Shown here: piece by piece, positions 2,558-62,422 of the stretch
Layout of the letters: each line of letters begins with the position of its first letter
How positions within the stretch are numbered: position 1 is the stretch's first letter
Notes under the pieces: model-generated
Database searches by the model: none
What the model was told of the DNA's origin: nothing
Seen by the model: only the letters and a program-made list of their open reading frames with translations
Made by a program: the position numbers and the translations under genes
Assembly: GCA_039680605.1 (NCBI GenBank)
Contig: JBDKTA010000039.1
Span: 1-64,000, forward strand
DNA length: 64,000 bases
Direction of reading: 5' to 3'
From: Planctomycetaceae bacterium
GTDB lineage: Bacteria > Planctomycetota > Phycisphaerae > SM23-33

Positions 2558-2592
2558 AGCGAAGTCAAGGGCGGCGGCATCTAATTGGGTGG

Positions 2593-2622
2593 CATGGCGA
2601 CACGCGTTAGCAGGTCGCCATG
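2593..2622. repeat. Palindromic element, CATGGCGAC arms
   Basis: Arms CATGGCGAC (2593-2601) and GTCGCCATG (2614-2622) are perfect inverted repeats, preceded by GGGTGG. The same arms occur between genes at 33252 and inside the E2 gene at 52862 and 53231. Nothing else in the 283-bp gap 2429-2711 looks functional. Confidence 0.75.
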
Positions 2623-7373: not shown

Positions 7374-7472
7374 GGGTGCCGTGGCGCGCAGGGCCGAAGG
7401 CCCGAAGAGCCACGATCCCCGAACCTTGGGGCAGTCGTGGCTGTCGGGCTTCGCCCTCCCGCCACGGCACCC
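7374..7472. repeat. 99-nt cloverleaf-shaped palindromic element
   Basis: A perfect 13-bp closing stem (7374-7386 with 7460-7472) encloses three smaller hairpins at 7391-7403, 7409-7441 and 7446-7456. The outer arm GGGTGCCGTGGCG is close to that of the elements at 62334 and 53584, so it belongs to the same interspersed family. It begins 5 bp after the pntB stop. Confidence 0.7.
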
Positions 7473-7495: not shown

Positions 7496-7612
7496 TATGG
7501 AGTGCGGCAGCAGCAGCTGCCGCTTTGGATGTTTTTTGGCACAAGCAGTGCCCAACCTTCCGCACCATCCCAACAACAACCAAAGCGGCAGCTAAGGCTG
7601 CCGCACTCCATA
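7496..7612. repeat. Inverted doublet of GCGGCAGC palindromes
   Basis: Two inverted copies (7496-7529 and 7580-7612) share a 16-bp outer stem and a 14-bp inner stem; each copy is itself a palindrome. The same doublet occurs at 52329-52415, and a single copy lies inside a coding region at 60552-60586. Confidence 0.75.
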
Positions 7613-30889: not shown

Positions 30890-30899
30890 CCCAGTAGCA

Positions 30900-30944
30900 C
30901 GGGCGTCTCGCCCGTGAGTAGCATGGCCGTCTGGGCCATGCCTG
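30900..30944. repeat. AGTAGCAYGGGC-type palindromic pair
   Basis: Two small hairpins follow each other: CACGGGCG-TCT-CGCCCGTG, then a CATGGCC/GGCCATG stem, each introduced by AGTAGCA. Related copies lie at 33135-33240 and 42572-42595. Confidence 0.65.
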
Positions 30945-30971: not shown

Positions 30972-33137
30972 ATGAACAATCCGTTTCAGGATGCCTTGCA
31001 CCTCTGGCACATGAACGATGTACGCCCTGCCGCGGGCGGCCTCTCACTTGAGCCGCATGGCGAGGTCGAGCTGGGCGTGGAGCTCTCCGGTCAGGAGCGC
31101 GCCGAGTCGCTGGCCCGCGGCGGCGACGGCCGGGCGGCGCGCCTGCGCGGCGGATCATTGTCGCTGGCAGGCGAGGCGCCGCTGCAGCTTGGCAAATCCG
31201 CCTTTGCCGTGGCGATTCGCATGAAGGATGTGGACGGGACCTGGCTGCATCCGATCCTGGGCAGCGACGGCGGCGACGGGGCAGTGAGCCTGTCGCTGCG
31301 GGCCCTTGACGGCCGAACGATGCCCATGAGCGACCGCAACCTCTTCGGCGTGCGCAGCACGATCTACGCCTGGATGTTCAAGCCGGGCCTGCCTCGCTCG
31401 ATCGACGGCTGTCAGTCGCTGCTGGAGGTTGTCTGGGGCGCCGACGAGGTCAACGCTCCGCGGCGCGACATCCAGTTGCGGTTTCCCGAGCGAGACTATC
31501 CGCTGCTGGAGGACATCCAGAACGCCGTGATGAAGATCTGCTGCCCGGTGCAGAGGATCGGCGCGAGAGACTGGCACGACATCGTGGTGTGCTTTACCGG
31601 GCCCAAGCTGCTGTTGTATGTCGATGGCGTGCTGGTGGACGAGGAGTACCCCATCGGCGCCACGCGAGACAGCACGCAGCCGTTCCGGATCGGCGCCGGC
31701 CTGGCGGGGCAGAACATCCTGGTCGATCACGTGGCCGTGTGGGACCGGGCGCTATCGGCCGACGAGGTGGCGGCGATCTCCGGCGGTCCGCAGACGGTCT
31801 CGCAGCGCGAACTGGAGATCCTGGGCCCGCCGGCAAAGAGCATGCAGTATTTTCGCCCGCGCGGGCACAACAGCAAGGCCGGCGACTGCATCCCCTTCTG
31901 GCACGACGGCACGTTCCACCTGTTCTATCTGATCCTGCGCCGCAACATGCACAGCAAGTGGGACGGCGGCCACGGCGGGCTGGAGATCTGGCAGGCGACG
32001 ACAACGGACCTCAAGACCTGGACGCACCATCCGGTGACGATCCCCATCAGCGAGCAGTGGGAGGCCTGGAACGGCACCGGCGGCGTGGCGGTGCATGAGG
32101 GCGTGTACCACTGGTACTATCCCTGCCCGTGCTACGACAAGAAGTGGCCCCATCACGGTATCCAGCTCGCCACCAGCACTGATGGAATCCACTTCACCAA
32201 GCAGCAGCCTCACCCGTTCCTGGGCGGCGGCGACTGCGAGGTCTATGCCGATGCGGCAGGCACATATCACCTCATCCGCTACGGCGAGCGGACAGACAAA
32301 ACCATCCGCCTCGACCGCCTGACCTCGACGGACCTGCGCACCTGGACGCCGGCGGCAGAGCCGTTCATCGAGACCGACGCGCGTTACTGCATCGAGATGT
32401 GCCCCAACCTCTTCAAGATGGGCGACTGGTACTACTTCATGGGCGGGCTGAACTGGTGGCGCAGCCGCGGGGAGTTTGGCCCGTGGGAGGAGCACCACCC
32501 GCGGAGCTTGGACAACATGAGCGTGCCCAAGGTCGCCCGCTTCGGCGAGGGGCGCTACATCTACGCCGGCTTCCTCGACGATGGCGGCTGGGGCGGCAAC
32601 CTGATCCTGCGCGAGCTGGTGCAGAACAGCGAGGGCATTCTCGGCGTGACGTTCGTCCCCGAGCTGATCCCGCCCTGCGGCGACGACCTTCCTGTGCAGC
32701 CCGCGCTGACGCTCAAGGCCGCCGATCAGCGCGCCGAGGCCGTCATCCCCAACATCGCCGGCGGTGCGCGCATCACGATGAAGATCGCGCCGCAACCGGG
32801 GATCAAAAAGTTCGGCCTGCGCCTGCGAGGCGGGGCTCAAGCCGACGACGGCTGCGAGTTGTCCTTTGATCCCATCAATCGCACGGCAATCTATTCAGCC
32901 ATCGTCGACAGCGCCGGCACGAACTGGGGCACGCCGGGCATCCATGAAGTGGCCGGTCTCGACAAGCCCTTCGAGGTCGACATCATCTGCCGCAACGACA
33001 TCATCGACGCGGAGCTGACGCGATTTCGCACTGTCACCACGCGGTTCTGGAATCCATCAGCCGACCGCGTGCGGCTCTTCGCCGAAGGCGGCGAGGTGAC
33101 CTTCAGCGACATCCGCATTCGACCGCTGCTGCAGTAG
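30972..33137 (+). CDS. LamG plus GH32/GH43-like beta-propeller protein
   Basis: From the ATG at 30972, with AGGAG 9 bp upstream, this protein has 721 residues and no signal peptide. Residues about 1-275 form a LamG/concanavalin-like domain (LYVDGVLVDEEYPIGATRD, DHVAVWDRALSADEVAAI). Residues about 290-560 look like a five-bladed propeller of the GH32/43 clan: DCIPFWHDGTFHLFYLI, TTDLKTWTHHPV, ECP-like EMCPNLFKMGDWYYFMGG, and DNMSVPKVARFGEGRYIYAGF. A C-terminal beta-sandwich completes the GH32-like layout. The canonical WMNDPNG start is replaced, so activity on fructans is not assured. A longer TTG start is possible. The stop codon lies in a palindromic repeat. Confidence 0.7.
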   Translation: MNNPFQDALHLWHMNDVRPAAGGLSLEPHGEVELGVELSGQERAESLARGGDGRAARLRGGSLSLAGEAPLQLGKSAFAVAIRMKDVDGTWLHPILGSDGGDGAVSLSLRALDGRTMPMSDRNLFGVRSTIYAWMFKPGLPRSIDGCQSLLEVVWGADEVNAPRRDIQLRFPERDYPLLEDIQNAVMKICCPVQRIGARDWHDIVVCFTGPKLLLYVDGVLVDEEYPIGATRDSTQPFRIGAGLAGQNILVDHVAVWDRALSADEVAAISGGPQTVSQRELEILGPPAKSMQYFRPRGHNSKAGDCIPFWHDGTFHLFYLILRRNMHSKWDGGHGGLEIWQATTTDLKTWTHHPVTIPISEQWEAWNGTGGVAVHEGVYHWYYPCPCYDKKWPHHGIQLATSTDGIHFTKQQPHPFLGGGDCEVYADAAGTYHLIRYGERTDKTIRLDRLTSTDLRTWTPAAEPFIETDARYCIEMCPNLFKMGDWYYFMGGLNWWRSRGEFGPWEEHHPRSLDNMSVPKVARFGEGRYIYAGFLDDGGWGGNLILRELVQNSEGILGVTFVPELIPPCGDDLPVQPALTLKAADQRAEAVIPNIAGGARITMKIAPQPGIKKFGLRLRGGAQADDGCELSFDPINRTAIYSAIVDSAGTNWGTPGIHEVAGLDKPFEVDIICRNDIIDAELTRFRTVTTRFWNPSADRVRLFAEGGEVTFSDIRIRPLLQ

Positions 33138-33240
33138 CATGGGCATCTTGCCCATGAGTAGCACGGGCGTCCCGCCCGTGCAAATTGCCGGGGACATGGC
33201 CGGGACGGCCATGCTACTCACGGGCGAGACGCCCGTGCTA
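33135..33240. repeat. Cluster of AGTAGCAYGGGC palindromes
   Basis: Four small hairpins (CATGGGC/GCCCATG, CACGGGCG/CGCCCGTG in both orientations, CATGGCC/GGCCATG) form an inverted composite. The first copy contributes the TAG stop of the preceding gene. The 409-bp gap to 33546 otherwise holds the palindrome at 33252 and a 9-nt tract. Confidence 0.7.
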
Positions 33241-33251
33241 CGAAGAACGGC

Positions 33252-33285
33252 CATGGCGACCCGCTGAACAACGCGTGTCGCCATG
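33252..33285. repeat. Palindromic element, CATGGCGAC arms
   Basis: Arms CATGGCGAC (33252-33260) and GTCGCCATG (33277-33285) flank CCGCTGAACAACGCGT. The coding copies in E2 (52862 and 53231) are almost identical but 33 nt long; this one is 34 nt. Confidence 0.75.
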
Positions 33286-33308
33286 CCGCCCGGCCCCGGG
33301 GTTTCTTC

Positions 33309-40139: not shown

Positions 40140-40208
40140 TTAGCGACGGAGCTTGCTCCGCGCGTTTCACGGTGCCATGGCGGCTGCGAAACGGCTGCCA
40201 TAGCACCC
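40140..40208. repeat. Two adjacent palindromic elements between eboB and eboC
   Basis: CGGAGC-TT-GCTCCG (40147-40160) covaries with the element at 24035. It is followed by a GGTGCCATGGCGGC hairpin (40171-40208), the family also found at 62334 and 7374. Confidence 0.65.
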
Positions 40209-41295: not shown

Positions 41296-42573
41296 ATGTC
41301 CGACAAGCTCTTGGTCATCCAGGTTGCCGCTTTGTCTGAAGATGTGGCTCGGCAGTTGCCTGCCCTGCCGCTGACGTGGGCGGCGATGGACTCGGTCCTG
41401 CCGGCGGTGACGTGTACGGCCCAGGCGACGTTCCGCACTGCCTCGCTGCCGGCGCAGCACGGAATGATCGCCAACGGGATCTTCCACCGCACGCTACGCC
41501 GGGCGATGTTCTGGGAGCAATCCAGCGCCCTGGTCAGCGGGCGGCGCATCTGGGAAAACTTCAGCCTCGCCGGCAAACGCACGGCGATGCTCTTCTGGCA
41601 GCAGAGCCTGGGCGAGTGTATCGACGTGGTCCTCTCGCCTGCGCCGATTCACAAACATCACGGGCGCATGATCCAGGATTGCTACAGCCAGCCGCCGTCG
41701 CTCTATGGACGCCTGAAGGACAAGCTCGGTCCGTTCAAGCTGCAGGACTACTGGGGCCCGGCGGCCTCGGCCCGCGCGGGCGACTGGATCGCCGCGGCCA
41801 CCATCGAGGTGCTGCAAGGCGCCGTCGGGGCGATCGATTTGTGCATGACCTACCTGCCGACGCTGGACTACGACCTGCAGCGCTGGGGACCCTCGCACGA
41901 ACGAAGCGCCAAAGCCGTCGAACTGCTGGGCGTGCAACTGAGGCAACTGCTCGCCGCAGCACAGAGACTGGGCTACCGGGTGCTGGTCTTCGGCGACTAC
42001 GCCATCGCCGAAGTCACCGTCGCCGCTGTGCATCCCAACGCCGCCCTGCTGGCGGCGGGCCTGATGGCCGCCCGCAACGTGCGCGGAATGCTCTACCCGG
42101 ATCTGCACACCAGCCGCGCCTTCGCCGTGGTCGACCACGAAGTCGCCCACGTGTACGTGCGGTTCCCCGACGACATTACGGCCGCCGCCGAGACGCTGGG
42201 GAAACTTCCCGGCGTGGCGGCGGTTCTACAAGGACCGCAGTTGGAGGCCGCGGGGCTCAATCATCCCAACAGCGGCGAGCTGGTGCTGCTGGCGCAGGAA
42301 GGCGCCTGGTTCGCCTACCCCTGGTGGACGCACCCTCGCGAGGCGCCCGACTACGCCACGCATGTGGATATTCACAACAAGCCCGGATTCGACCCCTGCG
42401 AGTTGTTCCTGTCGCTGTGGCCGCCGGGCGTGAGCACTGACGCGCGGAAGGTTCGCGGCACGCACGGGCTGATCGGTCCGGGGCGCAGAGTCGCCTGGGC
42501 AAGCACCGCCGAGCTCGGCAAGCCCTCGAACCTGGTCGAACTGTCGCAGGCGGTTGAACGGTACCTGAAGTAG
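41296..42573 (+). CDS. eboF: Alkaline phosphatase-superfamily protein, EboF-like
   Basis: This 425-residue protein resembles nucleotide pyrophosphatases/phosphodiesterases of the alkaline phosphatase superfamily. VTCTAQATFRTASLPAQHGMIANGIFHR (about 36-63) contains the Thr-containing nucleophile loop, and AQHGMIANG matches the typical HG...NG. Later metal motifs appear as VFGDYAIAEV (about 233) and GTHGLIGPG (about 388). The order with eboB, C, D and E supports EboF. The TAG stop is part of a palindromic repeat. Confidence 0.75.
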   Translation: MSDKLLVIQVAALSEDVARQLPALPLTWAAMDSVLPAVTCTAQATFRTASLPAQHGMIANGIFHRTLRRAMFWEQSSALVSGRRIWENFSLAGKRTAMLFWQQSLGECIDVVLSPAPIHKHHGRMIQDCYSQPPSLYGRLKDKLGPFKLQDYWGPAASARAGDWIAAATIEVLQGAVGAIDLCMTYLPTLDYDLQRWGPSHERSAKAVELLGVQLRQLLAAAQRLGYRVLVFGDYAIAEVTVAAVHPNAALLAAGLMAARNVRGMLYPDLHTSRAFAVVDHEVAHVYVRFPDDITAAAETLGKLPGVAAVLQGPQLEAAGLNHPNSGELVLLAQEGAWFAYPWWTHPREAPDYATHVDIHNKPGFDPCELFLSLWPPGVSTDARKVRGTHGLIGPGRRVAWASTAELGKPSNLVELSQAVERYLK

Positions 42574-42595
42574 CATGGGCGTCTCGTCCATGCTC
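42572..42595. repeat. AGTAGCATGGGC palindromic element at a stop codon
   Basis: The element begins with the stop codon of eboF (TAG), followed by CATGGGCG and a diverged right arm CGTCCATG. A second inverted partner lies at about 42602-42624. Confidence 0.55.
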
Positions 42596-52204: not shown

Positions 52205-52447
52205 CTTTTAAGGACTGCGCGGCTCTTGTCGCAGTCTATGGCTCAAGTTAATCATAATTATGCACACAGATCAACATAAAAGTGCAAACTTTTTGCTTGA
52301 TGTTGAACATTTCATCCAGTATCCTTTTATGGAGTGCGGCAGCCTTAGCTGCCGCGTTGGAAGTTTTTCGCAAGCCGGAAGAATCCAAAGCGGCAGCTAT
52401 GGCTGCCGCACTCCAAGAGGCCGTGCCCTGTATACTGAGGTGCATAG
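52205..52447. promoter_or_regulatory. Divergent control region for the E1 and E2 operons
   Basis: This 243-bp gap lies between the DeoR-E1 and E2-E3 transcription units. It contains an AT-rich part (52230-52325), suited to promoters, and the palindromic doublet at 52329-52415. Confidence 0.5.
52329..52415. repeat. Inverted doublet of GCGGCAGC palindromes
   Basis: Copies at 52329-52360 and 52384-52415 form outer and inner stems like those at 7496-7612. The spacer is shorter. Confidence 0.75.
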
Positions 52448-54553
52448 ATGCTGACATTGCGGATACCGCAGCGTTCCAAGACCGTTGAGGAAGTAACCGT
52501 GGGCCGATGGTCCAAGGCCGAGGGCGGCAAGCTCAAGAAGGGCGAAACGATCGTCGAGATCGAGGCCCCCGACGCGATCTATCAGATCGCCGCCGCCGCC
52601 GACTGCCGGTTGCTCAAGGTGCTGGCCGGCGAAGGCACGGTCGTGGCCGTTGGCGAGCCGGTGGCCCTGCTGGGCCAGCCTGGCGAGGACACCGCCAAAG
52701 CGCTGGCCGAGATCGCCGCCCAAGCCGCCGCGGCTGCCCCCGCCAAGACGGTCAAGCTCGCCGTGGCGGCAGCCCGTGTGGATACATCCCCGCCGGCGCC
52801 GGCGGGTGCCACGCACAACTCCGTTGTGCGTGTCCCTGAATCCGCGGCGACCGCTGCCCCTCATGGCGACCCGCAGACAACGCGTGTCGCCATGCCACCC
52901 GTATCGGCCGGTTCGCCTGTCGTGCCCGTGCTCATGCCCCAGGCCGGGCAGAGCATGGAAGAGGGAACCATCGTCGCCTGGCGCGTCAAGGAAGGCGACC
53001 AGATCAAAGCCGGCGACATTATCTTCGATGTCGAGACCGACAAGGCCACCATCGAAGTTGAAGCCGTCGACGCCGGGCGCGTCGCCCGAATCGTCGTGCC
53101 CGAGGGGCAGACCGTCGAAGTGAAAGTGCCCGTGGCGTATCTGGCGGACAGTGCGGGCGCTGTCGATGCGTTCCTGCGCGGCGAGGCTGCCCCCGCGGCG
53201 GGTGTCCCCGAAGCTCCGACCGCCGCACCCCATGGCGACCCGCAAACAACGCGTGTCGCCATGCCACCCAGTGAACTGCCGGCCGGCGTGACACCCATCC
53301 TCATGCCCCAGGCCGGGCAGAGCATGGAAGAAGGCACCATCGTCGCCTGGCGCGTGAAAGAAGGCGACCGCGTCAAGGTTGGCGATATCATCTTCGATGT
53401 CGAGACCGACAAGGCCACCATCGAAGTCGAAGCCGTTGACGCCGGGCGCGTCGCCCGCATCGTCGCCCAGGAAGGCGAAACGCTCGAAGTGAAAGTGCCC
53501 GTGGCGTACATGGCCGAGGACGACGCGGCGGTCGATGCATTTCTGCGCAGCGGCGCCGCCCAAGGCGCCACACTCGCCGCGCAGGGTGCCACGCTCAACT
53601 CCGTTGAGCGTGTCCCCGAAGCAGCGCCGGGGACTGCCCAGGGCCTCAGGGACACGCACACCGGAGGTGTGCGTGGCACCCTCTCAGGTGACGGTCGGGT
53701 CAAGGCCTCGCCCGCGGCGCGCAAAGCCGCCGCCGAGCGAGGAATCGATCTGTCCGCCGTGCCTGCCGGCAGTGGACCGGGTGGGCGAATCCTTTCGACC
53801 GATGTGGCCATCGCCCCGACTGGCGCGGCTGCGCCCGCTGCGGGCAAAGTCCCGGCCAAGCCTGCCTTGGGCGAGCCCAAACGTACGAAGATGTCCGGCA
53901 TGCGAAAGGCCATCGCGAAAAATCTACAGGCCTCCAAGCAGACCATCCCGCATTTCTACATCAAGCAGACGGTGCGGGCCGACGCCCTGCTGGCCAAGTA
54001 CAAACAGCTCAAAGCCGCCGGCGAGTTCAAGTGTACGATCAATGACTTTGTAGTCGCGGCCGTGGCCAAGGCTGTCGCCGAGAAGCCCAGCTTCCGCAGC
54101 CAGGTTGACGGGACCGATCTGCTGGAATATCCCAACGCCAACGTCGGCATGGCCGTGGGCGTCGAGGGCGGGCTGGTGGTGCCGGTCATCGCTTCGGCAG
54201 ACAAGCTGAGCTTCCGCGACCTGGCTGCCCAGACGCGGCGCATCGTCGAGCAGGCCCGCAGCGGCAAGATCGAGAACATGGGCCAAGGCGCCATCACCAT
54301 CACCAACCTGGGCATGTTCGGCATCACGGAGTTCTCCGCGATCATCAACCCGCCCGAGGCCGCCATCCTGGCCGTCGGGGCGGCGCACGAAGAAGCGGTC
54401 GTCGAGAACGGCCAGGTCAAGGCCGCCCATGTGATGACGATGATCCTCAGTGTGGACCATCGCGTGATCGACGGCGTGATGGCGGCGGAGTTTGTAAACA
54501 GGCTTAGGGAACTGCTGCAAGACCCCGAAGGCTTGTTAAATCCTAAACTCTAA
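52448..54553 (+). CDS. E2 dihydrolipoamide acyltransferase with two lipoyl and one degenerate lipoyl domain
   Basis: This 701-residue E2 core forms the centre of the pyruvate-dehydrogenase-type complex. Domains: degenerate lipoyl-like (1-80), lipoyl 1 (about 158-237, Lys199 in ETDKA), lipoyl 2 (about 282-360, Lys322), peripheral-subunit-binding domain (about 416-455, VKASPAARKAAAERGIDL), catalytic domain (about 475-701) with the active-site histidine in SVDHRVIDGV. In the first domain the lipoyl Lys is replaced (EAPDA). The linkers at 120-151, 250-274 and 380-412 are encoded by palindromic repeats. The last four codons and stop lie in a heptamer tract. Confidence 0.93.
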   Translation: MLTLRIPQRSKTVEEVTVGRWSKAEGGKLKKGETIVEIEAPDAIYQIAAAADCRLLKVLAGEGTVVAVGEPVALLGQPGEDTAKALAEIAAQAAAAAPAKTVKLAVAAARVDTSPPAPAGATHNSVVRVPESAATAAPHGDPQTTRVAMPPVSAGSPVVPVLMPQAGQSMEEGTIVAWRVKEGDQIKAGDIIFDVETDKATIEVEAVDAGRVARIVVPEGQTVEVKVPVAYLADSAGAVDAFLRGEAAPAAGVPEAPTAAPHGDPQTTRVAMPPSELPAGVTPILMPQAGQSMEEGTIVAWRVKEGDRVKVGDIIFDVETDKATIEVEAVDAGRVARIVAQEGETLEVKVPVAYMAEDDAAVDAFLRSGAAQGATLAAQGATLNSVERVPEAAPGTAQGLRDTHTGGVRGTLSGDGRVKASPAARKAAAERGIDLSAVPAGSGPGGRILSTDVAIAPTGAAAPAAGKVPAKPALGEPKRTKMSGMRKAIAKNLQASKQTIPHFYIKQTVRADALLAKYKQLKAAGEFKCTINDFVVAAVAKAVAEKPSFRSQVDGTDLLEYPNANVGMAVGVEGGLVVPVIASADKLSFRDLAAQTRRIVEQARSGKIENMGQGAITITNLGMFGITEFSAIINPPEAAILAVGAAHEEAVVENGQVKAAHVMTMILSVDHRVIDGVMAAEFVNRLRELLQDPEGLLNPKL
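52804..52900. repeat. Palindromic composite element inside E2 (linker 1)
   Basis: It contains hairpin CACGCACAA/TTGTGCGTG (52810-52832), then TGTCCCTGA, then the CATGGCGAC/GTCGCCATG hairpin (52862-52894) and CCACCC. It encodes GATHNSVVRVPES and HGDPQTTRVAMPP. Confidence 0.8.
53199..53269. repeat. Palindromic element inside E2 (linker 2)
   Basis: GGGTGTCCCCGAAGC precedes the CATGGCGAC/GTCGCCATG hairpin (53231-53263). It encodes a second identical HGDPQTTRVAMPP. Confidence 0.8.
53584..53681. repeat. Palindromic composite element inside E2 (linker 3)
   Basis: A perfect 11-bp closing stem (53584-53594 with 53671-53681) encloses hairpins at 53590-53612 and 53653-53675. It encodes GATLNSVERVPEA and RDTHTGGVRGT. 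Confidence 0.8.
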
Positions 54554-54571: not shown

Positions 54572-54633
54572 GACCAAATGACCAAAAATCAAAATACAAA
54601 AAGGGATTGGGAGCTGTAGCTGGAGCGATCGCT

Positions 54634-55005
54634 ATGTCAGAAATCCAGCCCAGAAGACAATACGATCTGGAGGCAAGGACGCTTGCCTTTGCCAGAGGCG
54701 TGCGGCAATTTGTTGCCCGATTGTGCAAAACGCAGGCGAACATTGAGGATGGCGGCCAACTCATCCGCTCCTCGGGCTCAGTCGGGGCTAACTATATTGA
54801 AGCAAACGAGGCTTTGAGCAAGAAAGACTTTGCGATGAGAGCCAAGATTTGTCGCAAGGAGGCAAAGGAGAGCCGGTACTGGCTGGACATAATCGATACA
54901 GGCAAAGACGGTGCGTTGGAGACCGACCGGAAACGATGGCGGCAAGAAGCCGATGAACTCACCAAAATCTTTGGCGCCATCGTCGAGAAGACTAAGCCAT
55001 CGTAA
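54634..55005 (+). CDS. Four-helix bundle (23S rRNA intervening-sequence type) protein
   Basis: From the ATG at 54634 this protein has 123 residues: LEARTLAFARGVRQFVARLCKT, GGQLIRSSGSVGANYIEANEALSKKDFAMRAKICRKEAKESRYWLDII. The RSSGSVGANYIEA and KEAKESRYWL signatures define the S23/IVS-type four-helix bundle family, small proteins of unclear role that often sit alone in variable regions. It interrupts the E2-E3 operon and is flanked by inverted heptamer tracts, so it looks inserted. Confidence 0.85.
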   Translation: MSEIQPRRQYDLEARTLAFARGVRQFVARLCKTQANIEDGGQLIRSSGSVGANYIEANEALSKKDFAMRAKICRKEAKESRYWLDIIDTGKDGALETDRKRWRQEADELTKIFGAIVEKTKPS

Positions 55006-60326: not shown

Positions 60327-62297
60327 ATGGCACGCTCTAAAGCCAAGGCCAAGGCAAAAGAACCGGCAAAGAAGGCTGCAACGACGACCACCCGCAAACC
60401 CACTCGGAAGAAGGTGGGCACGAAGAAGGGCATTGGATCGGCCGCAACCAAGAAGGCGGTTCACGCGTCCGTCAAAGCCAAAGCCCGCGTGGTCAAGACG
60501 GGCAAGAAGAAAGCGGTTAAGGCTGTGAAGAAGGCGCCCGCCCGCACAACTTCCAAAGCGGCAGCTAAGGCTGCCGCACTCCATAAGAAGCCTGCCGCAC
60601 GCAAGAAGGCCGCCGCGGCAAAGATTCCATCCCTGCAGCACGCGGTGCAGCTCATCGGGCCCGACAAGCTGACGCTCAACGCCTCCAAGGCGGTGCATGA
60701 GGTCGGGCCCTACGGCGTGCTGGCCCGCGTCGAGTCGGTGGGGCTGTGCTTCAGCGACCTCAAGCTGCTCAAGCAGTTCGACCAGCATCCGCGAAAGAGC
60801 GGGATCGTCGCCGGGATAGACCAGGCTGCTCTGCCGGCGATGCCCAGCTACGTTCCCGGCGATAAGCCCACCGTCCCCGGCCACGAGGCCACGTGCGTGA
60901 TCGTGGCGGTCGGACCCAAGGTCAAGCGCCACAAGGTCGGCGAGCGCTGCCTCGTTCAGACCGACTACCGCTGGCTCAAGACCGACAAGTCCAACGCGGC
61001 GTTCGGGTACAACTTCGAAGGCGCCCTGCAGCAGTACGTGCTGATGGACGAGCGCGTGATCCTCGATCCCCAGAGCGGCCAACGCATGCTTATCCCCGTC
61101 GACCGCCAGCGCAGCGCCTCGGCGATCTGCCTGGTCGAGCCGTGGGCGTGCGTTGAAGATTCCTACGTCACCCCCGAGCGCCGCGGGATGATGGCCGGCG
61201 GCAAGCTGCTGGTGGTCGCCGAGGCCGGCTACAAGATCCAGGGCATCGCCGAAAGCCTCAATGCGGATGGCAAACCGGCAGTCGTGCTGGCCAAGCTCGC
61301 GCAGGGCGATCAGCTCGCGGATCTGCGGGCGGCCGTGGGCATGACCGTCGTCGATATCGAGTATCCCAAGACGCTCGAACCGGGCGTGTGGAACGATATC
61401 GTGTACTTCGGCACCGACCCGGCCGTCATCGAACTGCTCAACGACAAGCTCGCCCCCGGCGGGATCATGAACATTGTGACGGCCGGCAAGACCATTGGCC
61501 GGGCGGTCGAGATCAGCGTCGGTCGCGTGCATTACGGCATGTGCCGCTGGGTGGGCACCGCCGGCGCCAATGCGGCTGACGGATACAAGATGATCCCGGC
61601 CGACGGCGAGGTGCGCGACAACGACAGCGTGATCGTGATCGGCGCCGGCGGGCCGATGGGTCAGATGCACGTGATCCGCGACGTCTGCTCGGGCAAGAAG
61701 AACCTCTCGGTCGTCGGGACCGACTTCGACGACGCCCGCCTGGCGACGCTCGAGGCCAAGGTCGCCCCGCTGGCCGCGGCTAACGGTGTGACGCTGAAAA
61801 TGATCAACCCCAACAAGCAGGGCAACACGGGGACCCACAGCTACCACGCCATCATGGCCCCCGTACCGGCGCTGGTCTCTGCGGCGATAGCCTCCAGCAC
61901 ACAAGGGGCGCTGATCAACATCTTCGCGGGCATCGCCGCGACGGTGAAGCATCCCATCGACCTCGACGCGATCGTCAGCAAGAGCATCTTCATGTTCGGC
62001 ACCAGCGGTTCGACCATCCGCGACATGATGATCGTACTGGAGAAGGTGCAGGCCGGCACCCTCGACACCAACGCCTCCGTCGACGCTGTCAGCGGAATGG
62101 CCGGGGCTATCGACGGCATTGCGGCTGTCGAAAACCGCACGCTGGCCGGAAAGATCATCGTCTATCCGGAACTGGTGGACCTGCCCCTAACGCCCCTGAG
62201 CGAACTGAAGAACAAACTGCCCGCCGTGGCCGCCAAGCTCGACCCGCACGGCCAGTGGACCAAGGCGGCTGAAGAAACGCTGCTGAAGCAGCGGTAA
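60327..62297 (+). CDS. SorE-like dehydrogenase with histone-like Lys/Ala tail
   Basis: From the ATG at 60327 (GGAAGGA upstream) this protein has 656 residues. Residues 1-100 are a Lys/Ala/Arg-rich, low-complexity tail like bacterial H1/Hc1-type histones. The rest is a medium-chain dehydrogenase: VGLCFSDLKLLKQF, PTVPGHEATCVIVAVGPKVKRHKVGERC, VIVIGAGGPMGQMHVIRDV. The order of motifs fits L-sorbose-1-phosphate reductase (SorE)-type enzymes. Zinc ligands appear in CFSD and GHE. Residues 76-87 are encoded by a palindromic element (60552-60586). Confidence 0.78.
   Translation: MARSKAKAKAKEPAKKAATTTTRKPTRKKVGTKKGIGSAATKKAVHASVKAKARVVKTGKKKAVKAVKKAPARTTSKAAAKAAALHKKPAARKKAAAAKIPSLQHAVQLIGPDKLTLNASKAVHEVGPYGVLARVESVGLCFSDLKLLKQFDQHPRKSGIVAGIDQAALPAMPSYVPGDKPTVPGHEATCVIVAVGPKVKRHKVGERCLVQTDYRWLKTDKSNAAFGYNFEGALQQYVLMDERVILDPQSGQRMLIPVDRQRSASAICLVEPWACVEDSYVTPERRGMMAGGKLLVVAEAGYKIQGIAESLNADGKPAVVLAKLAQGDQLADLRAAVGMTVVDIEYPKTLEPGVWNDIVYFGTDPAVIELLNDKLAPGGIMNIVTAGKTIGRAVEISVGRVHYGMCRWVGTAGANAADGYKMIPADGEVRDNDSVIVIGAGGPMGQMHVIRDVCSGKKNLSVVGTDFDDARLATLEAKVAPLAAANGVTLKMINPNKQGNTGTHSYHAIMAPVPALVSAAIASSTQGALINIFAGIAATVKHPIDLDAIVSKSIFMFGTSGSTIRDMMIVLEKVQAGTLDTNASVDAVSGMAGAIDGIAAVENRTLAGKIIVYPELVDLPLTPLSELKNKLPAVAAKLDPHGQWTKAAEETLLKQR
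60552..60586. repeat. GCGGCAGC palindrome inside a coding region
   Basis: GCGGCAGC (60558-60565) and GCTGCCGC (60570-60577) with flanks TTCCAAA and ACTCCATA match one arm of the intergenic doublets at 7580-7612 and 52384-52415. Encoded residues: SKAAAKAAALHKK. Confidence 0.8.
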
Positions 62298-62333: not shown

Positions 62334-62422
62334 GGGTGCCATGGCGGCCGTTCTTCAGCCGCCATGCTTGCGCACCAAAGCTTCAGGGACATGGCGGCTG
62401 GACAACGGCCGCCATGGCACCC
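62334..62422. repeat. Composite palindromic element upstream of lipB
   Basis: A perfect 15-bp outer stem (62334-62348 with 62408-62422) and inner arms (62358-62366 with 62390-62398) allow either two hairpins or one long stem. It ends 14 bp before the lipB start codon. Confidence 0.8.

Follow-up and report, generated by a model that had tools for sequence, protein, structure and literature searches.

Three of the four flexible linkers in the pyruvate dehydrogenase subunit dihydrolipoamide acetyltransferase (E2) of an uncultured planctomycete bacterium are to a large part encoded by hairpin elements that lie in frame here and otherwise mostly between genes. How did such elements come to form part of an enzyme? 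We addressed this question in the window, a stretch of 64,000 nucleotides (positions 1 to 64,000 of contig JBDKTA010000039.1), and in the draft genome of 72 contigs to which it belongs. In our estimate, there is a probability of roughly 85% that the linker segments are REP/REPIN elements of the kind served by REP-associated tyrosine transposases (RAYTs), inserted in frame into E2.

Results

Pfam and NCBIfam assign three lipoyl domains, one E3-binding domain and one catalytic domain to E2. Five hairpins (52810-52832, 52862-52894, 53231-53263, 53590-53612 and 53653-53675) are distributed over three of its linkers. As single strands they fold with z scores from −4.1 to −5.2, and linker 3 folds into a single 98-nt hairpin with a z score of −7.45. 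A sequence-only reading of the window had described all three E2 linkers as built from palindromic elements. Three linkers do carry hairpins, but E2 has a fourth, which joins the E3-binding domain to the catalytic domain and is free of elements, so that three of four are affected. The limits given for the linkers in that reading are near the limits of three REPIN-like doublets. The gene is organized as follows.

52448..54553, plus strand: E2 gene, dihydrolipoamide acetyltransferase, 701 aa (Pfam and NCBIfam)
52804..52839, plus strand: linker 1, element A with GGGTGC foot, hairpin and TCCCTGA flank; encodes GATHNSVVRVPE; exact copy of the genome-wide 36-nt element
52862..52900, minus strand: linker 1, element C; CATGGCGAC hairpin, foot GGGTGG (minus strand); encodes HGDPQTTRVAMPP
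52925..53192, plus strand: repeat unit of lipoyl domain 2, most likely copied with element C; 83% identical to 53294-53561 over 268 nt
53200..53210, plus strand: linker 2, footprint of element A (GGGTGTCCCCG), 24-nt hairpin gone (comparison of linkers 1-3)
53231..53269, minus strand: linker 2, second copy of element C; 92% identical to the 52862-52900 region over 53 nt
53294..53561, plus strand: repeat unit of lipoyl domain 3
53584..53619, plus strand: linker 3, element A, both arms carrying paired changes (CACGCTCAAC / GTTGAGCGTG)
53646..53681, minus strand: linker 3, inverted element A, again with both arms carrying paired changes; REPIN-like doublet with the 53584..53619 copy

Between E2 and E3, a small gene occupies 54607-55005; its product presumably resembles a four-helix-bundle protein of the 23S rRNA intervening-sequence kind.

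E2 has more palindromes than expected by chance: six with arms of at least 9 were observed, whereas 300 synonymous-codon shuffles gave 0.43 on average and no more than 3 in any case. Five of the six are the linker elements. The 47 related E2 genes contain zero to two palindromes each, none of them a linker-type element. This comparison, similar to a check suggested by the sequence-only reading, found the linker elements absent and supports its proposal that interspersed elements had entered the linkers in frame. Residues 97-156, 246-278 and 369-416, which comprise the element-bearing linkers, have pLDDT values below 50 in an AlphaFold2 model that is poor overall (mean pLDDT 62.7, eight sequences) and was used for linker disorder only. 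The low values are consistent with tolerated insertion in flexible parts of the predicted protein.

Each of linkers 1-3 represents an inverted hairpin pair of a REPIN-like type, in which the GGGTG(C/G) feet face outward; one hairpin is gone from linker 2. In linker 1 (52804-52900), the A hairpin (GGGTGC foot, CACGCACAAC-TCC-GTTGTGCGTG) is followed by the C hairpin CATGGCGAC...GTCGCCATG with its GGGTGG foot on the opposite strand, while linker 3 (53584-53681) consists of two inverted A hairpins, feet outward. Linker 2 (53200-53269) contains the C hairpin and retains the bare A footprint GGGT/GTCCCCG, in which precisely 24 nt, equivalent to eight codons, are absent in comparison with linker 1. 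This was the only excision footprint found in a 1.0-Mb sample of the genome and not a general feature there. Both hairpins of linker 3 (53590-53612 and 53653-53675) deviate from the consensus on both arms yet keep their pairing, and so do copies adjacent to the RAYT described below. Such paired changes suggest hairpin-templated repair or the spread of variant families.

Linkers 1 and 2 share the identical peptide HGDPQTTRVAMPP, confirming an earlier statement on two 13-residue segments, and their coding copies show four synonymous changes in 17 codons and none that is non-synonymous. Between the lipoyl domains beside them, 86 codons contain 19 synonymous and 14 non-synonymous changes. Since the per-codon synonymous divergence is equal in element C (0.24, 4/17) and the lipoyl domain (0.22, 19/86), both were most likely copied together as one piece. 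The two identical segments would then most likely go back to one insertion that was duplicated along with the lipoyl domain. In a tree calculated without the L164 and L071 E2 sequences, which contain runs of unknown residues, lipoyl domains 2 and 3 of this E2 are each other's closest relatives (support 93/91), a grouping within one gene that is also seen in several other genomes. Equal divergence and closest relationship agree with duplication of the element with its domain, as had been proposed. Related E2 proteins have the same three-lipoyl layout without elements; thus, entry of the elements into E2 probably preceded the most recent copying event of the lineage.

A genome-wide count of the palindromes and their reading frames had been recommended. 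The 5.23-Mb draft genome contains about 95 copies of family A (CACGCACA palindrome) and 146 copies of family C (CATGGCGAC palindrome); reversed A and C patterns, searched in the same genome as a control, gave zero matches. Sampled and aligned A copies adhere to a strict GGGTGC-hairpin-TCCC(T/C)GA form, their flanks are otherwise unrelated, and they lack a constant CGTC. The sister family B (CATGGCGGC) has the foot and inner flank of A, and A-A as well as B-B inverted doublets recur in the genome. Some family B matches in genes (e.g. L088, L098:14175) were set aside as chance hits from relaxed matching. The sample of about 1.0 Mb, although approximately 85% of it falls in predicted genes, has 56 of its 67 A copies in intergenic positions and nine within genes; as the sample consists of stretches picked around known copies, densities per Mb are biased. 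The A core was present in two of 150 class-level genomes, this one included, and the other one has a single copy. Within the window, the CACGCACA palindrome is confined to E2. Elements of the other families lie between its genes.

2588..2622, plus strand: intergenic element C, 30-nt hairpin, GGGTGG foot
33252..33291, minus strand: intergenic element C, 34-nt form
40171..40206, plus strand: intergenic sister element B (CATGGCGGC)
62334..62422, no strand assigned: intergenic B-B inverted doublet with outward GGGTGC feet

The same palindromes as in E2 had been reported at five sites between genes. All five (2593, 7374, 33252, 40171 and 62334) are intergenic in the gene models, and those at 2593 and 33252 carry an E2 palindrome, but the other three do not. 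Sites 40171 and 62334 are of the CATGGCGGC sister type, and an inverted repeat of greater length is present at 7374; all three share with the E2 elements only the GGTGCC/GGGTGCC foot and, at 62334, also the inner flank.

Another family, D (GCATGGGCG), has 221 exact copies, GTAG- or GTGG-footed by inspection, and is patchy across the class with exact copies in eight of 150 genomes searched. GTAG-footed members (AGTAGCA[CT]GGGCGTC...) are intergenic at 30893-30940, 33133-33180 and 42569-42592. Tandem D units give rise to in-frame repeated EHGRDAHATQQ peptides within or at the end of long frames (L084:2-784, L118:4589-6901, L094:5135-7462), which in L084 come after a PD-(D/E)XK nuclease domain. 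A further repeat, GCGGCAGC...GCTGCCGC with TATGGAGTGCGGCAG ends, occurs at 7496-7536, 7573-7612, 52328-52368, 52378-52417 and 60546-60585, with one copy inside the predicted gene 60327-62297.

The genome has 15 Y1_Tnp matches. The window's own contig encodes an intact RAYT of 192 residues (C39:119328-119903, equivalent to L075:11329-11904) that matches NF047646 with 111 bits against a cut-off of 80 and contains HVH and YIHNNPV motifs. It has inverted A doublets on both sides, two per side. For families B and C, no RAYT of their own was located. At C4:19439, family D flanks a candidate for a second RAYT, which is a weak profile hit within another long frame and was not counted. At loci of RAYT homologues in other genomes, eight of 11 have hairpins that share a GGTG(C/G) foot and differ in their stems, compared with 0 of 56 controls, and in two of these genomes the local hairpin itself is repeated many times. 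A constant foot with a varying stem would be expected if the enzyme reads foot plus hairpin. The RAYT of this contig and its homologues L170-L178 represent a group within this class whose flanking hairpins combine an invariant GGGTG(C/G) foot with stems specific to each genome.

In-frame copies are not restricted to E2. A B-B doublet provides about 26 extra residues in Fmt (L098:3331-4344), with none at that site in 19 relatives, and HypF (L086:17915-19999) has about 27 extra residues versus three in the solved homologue 3vth. Compared with solved homologues, approximately 10, 16 and 21 extra residues are found at the element in a GH43 enzyme (L081:12102-13718), a PFL-like protein (L090:4313-6523) and a Lar-like protein (L091:3381-4751), respectively. 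Additional copies reside in GH95, GH38, GH88 and FAD enzymes. Eight of the nine in-gene A copies in the 1.0-Mb sample are in one reading frame, which is symmetric, reading GATHNSVVRVP forward and RDTHNGVVRGT reversed. As the element contains a stop in one forward frame, numbers are small and copies not all independent, this amounts to a trend only.

The 33-nt form of C was found exclusively in E2, with two copies. Another 15 places have the 34-nt form, and a one-base adjustment could account for this difference. This part of an earlier distinction between 33-nt coding and 30- or 34-nt intergenic copies holds, but the multiple of three does not hold as a rule for coding copies: 29-nt copies lie in frame in the GH43 and PFL-like genes, and doublets within genes, measured from foot to foot (85, 85, 95 and 96), are not preferentially multiples of three in length. 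What counts for the frame is the net inserted length, which is measurable only given an empty site. No empty site or target site was seen at the DNA level; the closest E2 matches, which come from other genera and are 54-60% identical, are too distant.

Discussion

How the elements may have reached E2 can be pictured as follows. The mobile unit would be a hairpin with GGGTG(C/G) as the foot at its base, and a doublet would consist of two inverted units with outward feet. A RAYT, presumably the one on this contig, would recognise foot and hairpin in single-stranded DNA, cut, and join a copy elsewhere. Most copies would survive between genes, and those within genes would persist only if the frame is kept, the peptide is soluble and the site is a linker or loop, the encoded peptides probably being neutral passengers. 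In E2, linker insertions would have been followed by duplication or conversion of element C and the lipoyl piece as one, and subsequently linker 2 would have lost one hairpin.

One might argue that a function in the mRNA or protein maintains the E2 hairpins, e.g. slowing translation between domains or setting linker length. Their position between domains, the exactly conserved arms of both C copies and the paired, hairpin-preserving changes in both A copies of linker 3 speak for such a role. However, paired changes are also present in non-genic copies beside the RAYT, one hairpin was lost from linker 2, relatives manage without hairpins and similar inserts are spread across unrelated enzymes, so we regard a function of this kind as improbable. 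Lower still is the chance that protein segments came first and that recombination scattered them, leaving intergenic copies as debris of E2 or other linker genes. In several genes, some copies do share a frame and read as open peptides. Yet the intergenic copies are not the E2 fragments that the sequence-only reading had held to count against itself: most copies lie between genes without lipoyl or linker sequence nearby, have a strict foot-hairpin form with boundaries of their own, and flank a RAYT. In the sampled copies, the sequence on either side of intergenic elements matched no gene.

Misjoining of repeats during assembly deserves mention in a draft genome whose elements are repetitive, but the E2 frame is unbroken across five elements with conserved domains on either side, as is the case in several other enzymes, and elements of 36-98 nt are shorter than one read. 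An artefact is thus no more credible than scattered debris. Finally, ordinary low-complexity linkers could have become palindromic at the DNA level by codon bias or selection on the peptide, given that E2 linkers are usually Ala/Pro-rich and variable and that GC-rich DNA yields some palindromes. Synonymous shuffles fall well short of the observed palindrome number, and copies of the same 36-nt element between genes throughout the genome already refute this explanation, to which we attach practically no weight.

In-frame insertion of RAYT-type elements, the reading we favour, has precedents. REPs reside within genes of several species from several phyla and, among GTAG repeats, are most numerous in Opitutus terrae; intragenic inserts amount to 20-30 residues, and flexible linkers and loops were already proposed as tolerated sites (Di Nocera et al. 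2013, PMC3733652). Like these GTAG- or CGTC-tagged REPs, the elements described here are short dispersed palindromes occurring singly and as inverted dimers, some of them in frame in unrelated genes, with inserts of about 20-30 residues in likely linkers or loops and RAYTs nearby. Unlike them, they reside in a planctomycete, the foot of families A and B is GTGC, and one gene carries several doublets, one of which was most likely copied along with a protein domain. Inverted foot-plus-hairpin doublets, a single RAYT flanked by them and patchy, genome-specific stems also resemble REPINs and RAYTs (Bertels and Rainey 2011, PMC3116915; TnpA-REP classes, PMC6006769), whereas the GTGC guide foot of A and B and the notable count of copies inside genes do not. 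The guide of RAYT/REP systems is described as GT[AG]G, and in-frame REPs inside RAYT genes have been reported (PMC6006769). With GTGG, family C fits this rule; A and B, with GTGC, fall outside, and A still flanks a RAYT. The group of RAYTs with a GGGTG(C/G) foot is possibly a guide variant of the rule.

Rickettsia palindromic elements had been put forward as a precedent. They have in common with the present elements the in-frame insertion of palindromes into unrelated conserved proteins, here E2, Fmt, HypF, GH43, PFL-like and Lar-like. Their tag, however, is CGTC, and CGTC repeats were found without a dedicated transposase (PMC3733652), whereas the present elements carry GTG(C/G) as their tag and, in the case of family A, flank a RAYT. 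The RAYT/REP (REPIN) system is a better home because a transposase flanked by the same elements lies on the contig and in-frame REPs were published in 2013. As such REPs in genes are known, E2 is a striking new case, neither a new principle nor a new class.

A more tentative idea, which we rather doubt, is that in this lineage a RAYT system guided by GTGC continually supplies new peptides for linkers and loops. The same soluble core (THN-S/G-VVR) in either orientation would make one-frame insertions tolerable whatever their direction, and the elements might join in duplicating whole domains.

In summary, the entry of RAYT-type palindromes into coding sequence is frequent in a genome of 5.2 Mb, affects core enzymes and is not limited to reduced intracellular genomes. 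The coding copies are tied to a transposase flanked by the same elements. With a RAYT group whose GTG(C/G) foot is constant while the stem changes between genomes, recognition of foot and hairpin becomes separately testable.
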